A stretch of DNA of 22,991 nucleotides, from IMG/VR virus record IMGVR_UViG_3300031673_000509, positions 1 through 22,991 of that record; one strand, 5' to 3'. The position numbers and the translations under genes are program-made. Source of the stretch: a virus. The notes under the pieces are model-generated. The model made no database searches, was not told the DNA's origin, and saw nothing but the letters and a program-made list of their open reading frames with translations. Positions 12,709 to 20,901 of this stretch are shown piece after piece; position 1 is the first letter of the stretch; every line of letters starts with the position of its first letter.

Positions 12709-13095
12709 TTACTCCACCTCCTTAATAACCTTGAGAACGGCTTGGATGGCTAAATCATAGACTTCCATTATCAGTCCACCTGGATGAGGCTTATAACGAT
12801 TCTCTATCCCCTCTATCTTCTCCAAATAATAAGCCATAACTAGAGAGAGGATTATTTTTGTTGCTTCATGTGGGCAAAAATGTTTATCGTTTAGCCATCT
12901 TGTTCGTTCGATACATTGTTCTACTTCCTCCACCAACTTCTCTGGTGCCAGAGAAGCATAGTAAGATTGGAGTTTGGCTACTTGGGCTTTGAGGATACTC
13001 TTTATATCCCAATAACTATCATCTCCCCCAAAATGTGCATTTGGTGTATTCTCATACTTAGCTATCTCTTCAATTGTCAATTCATACTCACTCAT
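12709..13095 (-). CDS. Hypothetical protein, 128 residues, mostly helical
   Basis: ATG at 13095 overlaps the helicase-loader stop as ATGA and has TAGGAGGTAACCA upstream. The protein begins with an acidic segment (YELTIEEIAKYENTPNAHFG), followed by several amphipathic helices (SILKAQVAKLQSYYASLAPE; LVEEVEQCIERTRWL) and a Cys/His pair (HFCPHEA). There is no membrane helix. It is translationally coupled to the helicase loader, which suggests a replication-related role, but no catalytic or binding motif is recognised. It resembles the general type of small helical phage proteins of unknown function. Confidence 0.75.
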   Translation of the reverse strand: MSEYELTIEEIAKYENTPNAHFGGDDSYWDIKSILKAQVAKLQSYYASLAPEKLVEEVEQCIERTRWLNDKHFCPHEATKIILSLVMAYYLEKIEGIENRYKPHPGGLIMEVYDLAIQAVLKVIKEVE

Positions 13096-13955
13096 TGGTT
13101 ACCTCCTATTTGTCTCCTACGGTAATCAGGTGCAGTATTAAGCACCATCTGGGCAACATCTGGGTCACTAAACCTTGAGAATATCCGCTCCGGTAGGCGA
13201 ATGGCATCCCCATTAGTTACCAGGACAGTAATTAACCGCTTTCTATATCGCGCAACTAATATTCCCTCTAGTTTGCTTTCTTCCCAACCAGTACCGAGTT
13301 TATATTGCCCATCTTCCCCAACCTCAAAAGCCTGGTCATCCAGAATTAAGGCATCTATCTCCTTGAGTACTTGTATATCTCTGTCTATCGTAAATGTCGG
13401 GATAGCCTGCTTTAGACTGCTTATCAGATCTGCTACAACATAAATCCTGACATTGATTCCACGCCAATTAAGAACAATCGCTAGGGCCTGACATAAGTGC
13501 GTCTTCCCATTTCCTACACCACCATAGCAGAGGAGGAAAGGTAAATCGGTTGTTCCATAAGCCAGATTATAAAAAGCCCGGTATGTTTCTTCGGTCCCTT
13601 TAATTGGCAGGAATTTTTCAAAGGAGGAGTTAGGTTGAGTAACGCCTATCTTAGCCAGATAACTTTCGCCCATGCGGTACTTCTGGCTTGAATCTGCAAG
13701 GCATCCCTTTGCTTTGCAGGAAAATGCTTGCCCAAACTGTTCATCACCAATAGGCACATCTTTATAAACCCAACCGATACCATGACACTTCTCGCAAAGC
13801 GGGTTCGGGCCATAGCCATCTTGAACCAATTGCTCTTGTGCTTCTATGACCATCTGCCTATCCACGGGCTTGCCCTTGTTGATGTTGCCGGCGGGCTTCT
13901 TCTGGGGGGGTGTAGTCTGTTGGAATCCCCCTAGCACTTTGCCGATGTGCTCCAC
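13092..13955 (-). CDS. DnaC/DnaI-like helicase-loader ATPase
   Basis: The 287-residue protein is an AAA+ ATPase of the DnaC/IstB type. Residues 54-85 form a zinc-finger-like cluster (CEKCHGIGW, then CKAKGC). The ATPase domain has Walker A GGVGNGKT (145-152), Walker B LILDD (203-207), sensor 1 VTNGD (246-250) and an RIFSRF box with candidate arginine finger (257-262). Such proteins load the replicative helicase at the origin; the zinc-ribbon-plus-ATPase form is like DnaI. The gene starts at GTG 13955 with AAGGAGGTCAAG upstream, and overlaps the initiator gene by 98 bases in another frame. Initiator plus loader is the lambda O/P-like pair in function. The helicase itself would come from the host. 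Confidence 0.9.
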   Translation of the reverse strand: MEHIGKVLGGFQQTTPPQKKPAGNINKGKPVDRQMVIEAQEQLVQDGYGPNPLCEKCHGIGWVYKDVPIGDEQFGQAFSCKAKGCLADSSQKYRMGESYLAKIGVTQPNSSFEKFLPIKGTEETYRAFYNLAYGTTDLPFLLCYGGVGNGKTHLCQALAIVLNWRGINVRIYVVADLISSLKQAIPTFTIDRDIQVLKEIDALILDDQAFEVGEDGQYKLGTGWEESKLEGILVARYRKRLITVLVTNGDAIRLPERIFSRFSDPDVAQMVLNTAPDYRRRQIGGNQ

Positions 13956-14652
13956 CTTGACCTCCTTTCTTCTGTTCTCGCCTTACCCAATTTAGAATAG
14001 TCGCATAATGGCTTTGAAACTTGTAGCCCTTGCTCTCAATACCAAAGGATAACTCTTCTATCCACTCCTTAGTTTTAGTTTCCCCAAGTTTATCTATAAG
14101 TTTTTGGTAGTCCTCATCAGTTAGTAAAACGTTTTGGAATTCCCCTTTTCTTTTGTATAGTTTCTTTTGTATAGTTTCTTTTTTCTTTTGTGTGACACGT
14201 GGGCTGCTAACTTTTGTTGACGATATTGCTAACTCAGTTGACAGAACTGCTAACTCTGGTTGACTATTCTGCAAACTTTTATTAGTTGACTGTTCTGCTA
14301 ACTTTGAGCTTAATGTTGACTGTTCTGCTAACTCCTGAACAGTTGACAGAACTGCTAACTTTTGCCATTGCTCCCAGTCCTTTTGAAAGCCGATATACTT
14401 ACCCTTGCGGTCAATAAGTTTCATATCGTTAAGGCTATGTAATGTCCTAGATACCACAGCCTTGCATAAACCAGTAGCCTCTACTATCTGAAAGTTAGCA
14501 ATATAGTCAACTTTCTTCTGAAAGCCGTAGGTCTTACGAATAATGCACAGAAGCACTTGCCATTGATTTGGCGATAGGTGCATCTTTATCAGATGCTCCA
14601 GTATTTCATTCGCTATCCTAGTGTGTCCGTCTTCAAGCTGAGGTTTCGCCAT
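13858..14652 (-). CDS. Replication initiator, lambda O-like winged-helix protein
   Basis: The 264-residue protein begins like the phage replication-protein-O family: residues 1-95 form a winged helix (TRIANEILEHLIKMHLSPNQ, then KAVVSRTLHSLNDMKLIDRK). Residues 98-146 are a repetitive linker with LAVLST, LAEQST, LAEQST, LAVLST and LAISST, which is simply the translation of the six DNA iterons at 14216-14360. A basic tract (QKKKETIQKKLYKRKGE) follows, then a helical C-terminal domain and a Gly/Gln-rich tail. By analogy with lambda, the N-terminal domain binds the iterons and the C-terminal domain recruits the helicase loader encoded next. It overlaps the HNH gene by 20 bases and the loader gene by 98. 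Confidence 0.85.
   Translation of the reverse strand: MAKPQLEDGHTRIANEILEHLIKMHLSPNQWQVLLCIIRKTYGFQKKVDYIANFQIVEATGLCKAVVSRTLHSLNDMKLIDRKGKYIGFQKDWEQWQKLAVLSTVQELAEQSTLSSKLAEQSTNKSLQNSQPELAVLSTELAISSTKVSSPRVTQKKKETIQKKLYKRKGEFQNVLLTDEDYQKLIDKLGETKTKEWIEELSFGIESKGYKFQSHYATILNWVRREQKKGGQGGAHRQSARGIPTDYTPPEEARRQHQQGQARG
14147..14190. other. AT-rich strand-asymmetric tract, probable DNA unwinding element
   Basis: Directly beside the iterons lies a pyrimidine-rich (plus strand), T-dominated tract containing a perfect 14-bp tandem repeat CTTTTGTATAGTTT at 14150-14163 and 14164-14177, then another CTTTTT/CTTTTG run. In lambda the iterons are likewise followed by an AT-rich, strand-biased region where melting begins. 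It encodes the KKKETIQKKLYKRK stretch of the initiator. Confidence 0.6.
14216..14360. repeat. Six 19-bp iterons inside the initiator gene (putative origin of replication)
   Basis: Six copies of a 19-mer start at 14216, 14237, 14259, 14285, 14315 and 14342 (spacing 21, 22, 26, 30 and 27). Plus-strand consensus is GTTGACtgttCTGCTAACT; copies 4 and 5 are identical, as are copies 2 and 6. The ends GTTGAC and GCTAAC make each unit an imperfect dyad, as in lambda iterons. A degenerate seventh copy may lie at 14192-14212. They fall in the linker region of the initiator coding sequence, matching the place of the lambda origin in gene O. Confidence 0.8.
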
Positions 14653-15100
14653 TTATTGTTGCTTCCTCGCTATGTCTCTTTACTAATTCAGCCAAGTATC
14701 CTTTTATCAGTTCCTGTTGTATTTCTGGCTCTACTAGTGCTCGCTTGTAAGCATCAGCCACAACCCCATCAATGTGTAACTTCTGCATAGAATTGAAACC
14801 ATCAGTAAATGTCTCTATTTCATCAGCAAAAAACAGTAAGCGAAGCACCCCTAGTAAGTCATTCTCAGCAACAGGACGAACCTTTCTTTCCTTTTCGTGA
14901 CACTCTTCACAAAGGGTAATCAAATAAGAATCAGGGTAATCCCAGGGGTCAGTATTGGGAAGATAGTCCCGGTGGTGGACAACTAGGGTAGATCCAGAGT
15001 CAAAGCATACCTGACAAGCCCACTCATCCCTTTCAAGGATCTCAAGGCGTTTCTTTTGCCAGCGCGGATCTTTCAGTTTTTCAGAATATTCACTTGGCAT
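14633..15100 (-). CDS. HNH endonuclease
   Basis: The 155-residue protein has a classic zinc-bound HNH fold: Cys29-x2-Cys32 (WACQVC), the His pair in LVVHHRDY (42-43), an Asn/Asp-rich turn (LPNTDPWDYPDSYL) and Cys64-x2-Cys67 with His68 (LCEECHE). The rest is helical and of unknown role. ATG at 15100 has AAGGAGGGG at five-base spacing; an in-frame GTG at 15127 with GAGGT upstream would add nine residues and cannot be excluded. Free-standing phage HNH proteins may be homing nucleases, packaging-associated nickases or replication nucleases; this one is in the replication block, directly before the initiator gene with which it overlaps. Confidence 0.85.
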   Translation of the reverse strand: MPSEYSEKLKDPRWQKKRLEILERDEWACQVCFDSGSTLVVHHRDYLPNTDPWDYPDSYLITLCEECHEKERKVRPVAENDLLGVLRLLFFADEIETFTDGFNSMQKLHIDGVVADAYKRALVEPEIQQELIKGYLAELVKRHSEEATINGETSA

Positions 15101-15136
15101 ATTCCCCTCCTTTTGTGGTCTAGCCACTTACGTACC

Positions 15137-20855: not shown

Positions 20856-20901
20856 GAAGTTTTATTTAGTTAAAATTCAGTTAAAATTTGGTTAAAAAAT
20901 A

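Follow-up and report, generated by a model that had tools for sequence, protein, structure and literature searches.

The DNA analysed here, called the window, is the whole 22,991-nt stretch of the IMG/VR record IMGVR_UViG_3300031673_000509, which derives from an uncultured phage. Its gene set is that of a phage, including a portal protein, a terminase, a RecT-like annealing protein and a DnaC-like loader among others, with nearly all genes on the minus strand. At the locus of interest lies a replication initiator gene of the protein O type, followed by a gene for a helicase loader (Table 1); a preliminary description made from the letters of the sequence had read both genes in this way, and the profile matches bear it out. 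A homologue of the loader also lies just downstream of the initiator gene in the related records L002, L003, L004, L005, L007, L008 and L010. The GTG start of the loader gene follows the strong ribosome-binding site AAGGAGG and lies within the initiator gene, 98 bases from its 3' end (13858-13955), an overlap which suggests that the two genes are probably translated together. At the other end, the first 20 bases of the initiator gene are shared with an HNH endonuclease-like gene (14633-15127; PHROG 119, E=8e-17). Elsewhere in the window, an 11-bp repeat of the ATTTAGTTAAA type occurs three times in the intergenic stretch 20864-20897, beside a run of C, and is possibly an operator. The GC skew of the window shows no switch and is uninformative, as nearly all genes lie on one strand.

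Table 1. Features of the initiator locus in the window, with positions in the 22,991-nt stretch; iterons are numbered in gene order.
Feature	Position	Strand	Evidence or remark
Protein-O-type replication initiator gene, 264 aa	13858..14652	-	PF04492 Phage_rep_O E=8.6e-25; PHROGs 'replication initiation O-like' 2.5e-28
Winged-helix DNA-binding domain coding segment, residues 4-96	14365..14643	-	Pfam match
DnaC/IstB-type AAA+ helicase loader gene	13092..13955	-	PHROG 50 E=1.7e-22; PF01695 8e-8
Extra iteron-like (seventh) site, GTTGACTATATTGCTAAC on the - strand, inverted relative to the array; codons 48-53 VDYIAN	14494..14511	-	0-mismatch match
Iteron 1, GTTGACAGAACTGCTAAC	14342..14359	+	
Iteron 2, GTTGACTGTTCTGCTAAC	14315..14332	+	
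Iteron 3, GTTGACTGTTCTGCTAAC	14285..14302	+	
Iteron 4, GTTGACTATTCTGCAAAC, 1 mismatch, other reading frame	14259..14276	+	
Iteron 5, GTTGACAGAACTGCTAAC	14237..14254	+	
Iteron 6, GTTGACGATATTGCTAAC	14216..14233	+	
Half-iteron encoding KVSS, AAAGTTAGCAGC on the gene strand; lies between the array and the AT-rich tract	14194..14211	+	
Probable DNA unwinding element: AT-rich tract containing ACAAAAGAAAC repeats	14147..14190	-	14-bp repeat; motif recurs in O-type genes

The AlphaFold2 model of residues 1-98 of the initiator (pLDDT 84.7) consists of helices at residues 8-23, 28-41, 53-60 and 64-76 and a wing with strands at 80-83 and 86-89. The closest PDB folds found by Foldseek are the winged helices of the CRP/FNR and MarR proteins, matches that are generic and weak (best E ~1.5e-3), and a PDB sequence search gave no significant match.

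The middle of the initiator gene carries an array of six dyads of the form GTTGAC-N6-GCTAAC (14216-14359). The six dyad iterons reported previously are therefore present, with a core of 18 bp rather than the 19 bp given for them. The sites fit the pattern GTTRRC-N6-GYYAAC, the fourth in gene order with one mismatch, and are spaced, from 14216 upwards, 21, 22, 26, 30 and 27 bp from start to start. With up to two mismatches allowed, the dyad pattern occurs 14 times in the window, a number that none of 100 shuffles reaches (shuffle mean 6.6); without mismatch it occurs six times, always within the initiator gene, where simple base counting would give about 0.02 for the whole window. Two features were absent from the preliminary description, namely a seventh exact site, inverted, at 14494-14511 and a half-site between the array and the AT-rich tract. 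The residues encoded by the half-site are invariant in a five-sequence alignment, and a degenerate site with two mismatches occupies its position in L002, L008 and L015.

Nine relatives of the initiator, with 46-63% protein identity to it, come from viral contigs and one Dehalococcoidia assembly. Dyad iterons are found in all nine at about nt 289-460 of the gene, with half-sites that have drifted in L010, and so the repeats are kept in related initiator genes; a lack of such conservation had been named beforehand as a finding that would refute the origin. Exact iteron matches are confined to the initiator locus in eight related viral records, while the L010 record has no exact match because its iterons diverged. 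The one cellular relative, L015 of the Dehalococcoidia assembly, is 77% identical over the domain, a hint that the window phage infects Chloroflexota; a PF04492 search of 400 genomes of the phylum returned mostly marginal matches. Scans of viral contigs with the DNA pattern also matched L022 and L023, as well as L017 and L020, which were set aside as unrelated chance matches.

Repeats inside a coding sequence may in principle be a feature of the protein, in this case a linker of the LAxxST type that grew by tandem duplication and has no part in an origin. Five of the six window copies do encode LAxxST in one frame, and tandem duplication occurs in the family, as L057 has an intact second copy of its wing-plus-QKDFEKW segment. 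Against this, the copy at 14259 reads SLQNSQP in another frame, and across the window and its relatives the same 18-bp DNA is read as LAxxST in frame 2, as VSxxAN in frame 0 and also in frame 1. Copies that occupy all three reading frames and encode different peptides are kept as DNA and not as peptide, and on this ground LAxxST as a protein repeat was rejected. The dyad form is retained, the copies adjoin a common AT-rich motif, and the annotated O-binding iterons of lambda lie at the same place of their gene (nt 349-433 of gene O vs nt 294-437 here). A protein repeat without origin role is hence very improbable. The irregular spacing and the LAxxST linker, both previously regarded as distinctive, lose that distinction, being by-products of conservation that acts at the DNA level.

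On the 3' side of the array lies the AT-rich tract, and the 14-bp tandem repeat described for it is confirmed as 2.6 exact copies at 14147-14182. Of 55 O-type genes, 41 have the motif ACAAAAGA(A/C)A in the 110 nt that follow the array, among them those of P22 and of lambda, whose sequence at this position is ACAAAAGACACTATTACAAAAGAAA. The motif starts a median of 5 bp past the last repeat and is concentrated there, as 100 copies fall in the 5,956 bp behind the arrays and 18 in 39,124 bp of the remaining gene sequence. The tract is therefore a probable DNA unwinding element.

Since lambda it has been known that an origin may lie within the gene of its initiator. Lambda and the lambdoid phages, such as phi80, P22 (gene 18), Gifsy-1, HK97-like and Stx phages, have an initiator of the same Pfam family as the window. 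They share with it the dyad iterons in mid-gene at a near-identical place, the 3' AT-rich tract with ACAAAAGA(A/C)A, and the order of winged-helix part, iterons, AT-rich tract, C-terminal part and loader or helicase gene. Together with the PF04492 match of the N-terminal domain and the conservation of the iterons as DNA in several frames in all nine relatives, the position, the order and the shared motif place the putative window origin in the lambda type. This assignment is supported by every feature that can be tested in sequence, and the lambda-like origin proposed earlier for this gene stands. Taken alone, such an origin is ordinary and of an already known sort. There are differences as well. 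In lambda gene O four O-binding iterons are followed by an AT-rich tract, and Stx phages have six iterons (PMC7466680). The window differs from lambda in iteron sequence and in having six iterons instead of four, and from lambda and the lambdoids in its more irregular spacing and its DnaC/IstB-type loader. Geobacillus phage GBK2 and Brevibacillus phage Jimmer2, whose DnaD-like/O-type initiators are annotated as DnaD-like, likewise have an iteron array inside the initiator gene, but their iterons are different and no embedded site was found in them. In Lysinibacillus phage SDFMU_Pfc and Virgibacillus phage Mimir87 the O-type domain is present and no array is detectable. Two Bacillaceae phages, L085 and L086, have an O-type domain and no iteron array in the gene, which implies that their origin lies elsewhere or has a different look.

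The seventh site lies inside the segment that codes for the DNA-binding domain, about 135 bp upstream of the array, and is strongly supported as a fact of the sequence. Scored with a position weight matrix built from the array only, it reaches 21.8, where the weakest array copy has 20.5. In the model it falls just before helix 53-60 and outside the wing (codons 48-53 vs wing residues 80-89). Seven of the ten genes formed by the window and its nine relatives have the site at gene nt 142, and these seven belong to one clade of eight in a tree (support 96/83) in which few deep forks are resolved. Between them, the codons of shared residues elsewhere are 34-57% identical and the site codons are identical (7/7). 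Of the 48 invariant degenerate residues of the domain, only seven are written with the same codon throughout the seven genes, and all but one of these form a consecutive run (K47, V48, D49, I51, A52 and N53). The chance of this run is 5.7e-7 by shuffling, or about 2e-5 for a run anywhere. Judged by its codons, the seventh site is under selection as DNA. L007 and L011 lack it, and in L010, where the iterons changed, it has decayed; it is thus not essential to every such origin.

Selection on these codons could also have a cause other than binding of the initiator, such as codon usage, mRNA structure or another protein. The site encodes part of a conserved KKxDxIxxxQ motif, and its inverted orientation makes pairing of the mRNA with an iteron conceivable (95% complementary). 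However, its half-sites and their spacing match the array exactly, the conserved codons are those of the half-sites, with variation in the spacer (CGT in L004), and other O-type genes have cognate copies of different iterons within the same domain. Such an explanation is accordingly regarded as unlikely, and a site that binds the initiator remains the preferred reading. The window very probably combines a lambda-type origin in the initiator gene with an extra site, selected as DNA, in the winged-helix coding segment.

The extra site is one case of a wider pattern. In a first set of 50 O-type genes, a matrix made from each array alone was used to scan the gene and its flanks. The coding part of the N-terminal domain held 21 cognate sites in 14.7 kb, the C-terminal part none in 18.5 kb and the flanks three in 143 kb, an enrichment of the N-terminal part over the flanks with p 3e-19. 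New genes from a further scan, with 26 arrays, served as a hold-out under the same settings and gave 27 sites in 7.7 kb of N-terminal parts (a slightly high count, as L116 repeats a contig of the first set and the domain boundary of L161 is misplaced), three in C-terminal parts and none in 61 kb of flanks (p 3e-26). Further weak rows of the hold-out are L146 and L167, with sites in the C-terminal part. Chance was rejected as the source of the embedded sites, since the flanks and C-terminal parts have almost none. In the first set the sites lie at two places: the clade of the window has them at nt 142-162, and a second group has them in the wing codons or, in one case, just ahead of these. Most embedded sites fall in the wing of the domain, and none was found in the genes of the lambdoid phages tested, which in this respect differ from the window.

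Phages with a wing site, all uncultured (L049, L059, L064, L080, L148, L155 and others), resemble the window in the domain, the array position, the AT-rich motif and the presence of a cognate site inside the DNA-binding-domain coding segment. Their extra site falls at about nt 221-300, usually in the orientation of the array and with its start 56-78 bp from that of the array, whereas the site of the window occupies nt 142-159, is inverted and has a start-to-start distance of 152 bp. For example, the L049 site (residues 80-85) lies in the first strand and the turn of the wing in the AlphaFold2 model. Two iteron copies within the DNA-binding domain are seen in L148 (1722-1760), L155 (1739-1776), L150, L149, L153 and L166. 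One copy belongs to the wing and the other to the end of the recognition helix or its vicinity, and in several cases the two are in different frames. The wing group needs at least three state changes on the tree, so that the wing site was gained or lost repeatedly.

For these relatives it may be asked whether the array itself arose by repeated copying of wing-coding DNA, so that the wing copy would be a remnant without a present role. The wing and linker copies mostly encode the same peptide, and L057 shows a duplicated unit from the wing to QKDFEKW. By contrast, in most wing genes none of 49 other N-terminal parts scores as high as the gene's own, which indicates that, even between phages that have diverged, the wing copy follows the sequence of its own array. 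The domain of L148 contains one 16-base sequence two times, read once as LLSKKI and once as VIQKDN. With the protein sequence taken as given, codon choice favours the site (p<=0.05) in 19 of the 37 genes from non-enterobacterial phages and in 10 of the 23 from the hold-out, but in only one of the remaining eight (seven enterobacterial phages and Jimmer2); in the hold-out the codons fit the site beyond the need of the protein with a Fisher p of 5e-11. A remnant without function is on these grounds improbable, and it has no direct bearing on the window, whose site lies elsewhere in the domain. The tandem duplication in the initiator gene of L057 spans about 1747-1930 and shows that copying of DNA that encodes the domain is one way for such arrays to grow.

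A broader proposal can be put forward tentatively, as something possible but short of probable. In a wide group of O-type phage initiators, a part of the domain that reads the DNA, mostly the wing, may be encoded by a copy of the very site that it recognises, with both changing together. In the clade of the window, a different part of the domain carries the embedded site, which is codon-invariant. No named cultured phage with an embedded site was found among 17 isolates. Likewise, no description of an embedded cognate site was found in the literature searched, which includes a minority of subscription papers, or by a term search within lambda and Stx origin papers.

By analogy with lambda, the course of initiation may be pictured as follows. 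The N-terminal winged-helix domain of the initiator, probably as a dimer, would bind the six 18-bp dyads found midway along the gene that encodes it, and the ACAAAAGAAAC-rich tract next to the array would then melt. The C-terminal part and the DnaC-type loader from the next gene would bring in the host replicative helicase. The seventh site most likely also binds the same initiator, and would then either form an outlying part of the origin complex or restrain transcription of the initiator gene.

An origin within the initiator gene is already known; what is new, as far as the literature searched shows, is the recurrent copy of the cognate site in the coding sequence of the DNA-binding domain. 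Origins of uncultured phages can also be sought by looking in PF04492 genes for iterons with ACAAAAGAAAC repeats behind them. The embedded site makes it testable how a phage may alter the specificity of its origin and still keep the initiator matched to it. If the proposal holds, a site and a protein segment that change together would allow initiator and origin to shift specificity in step.
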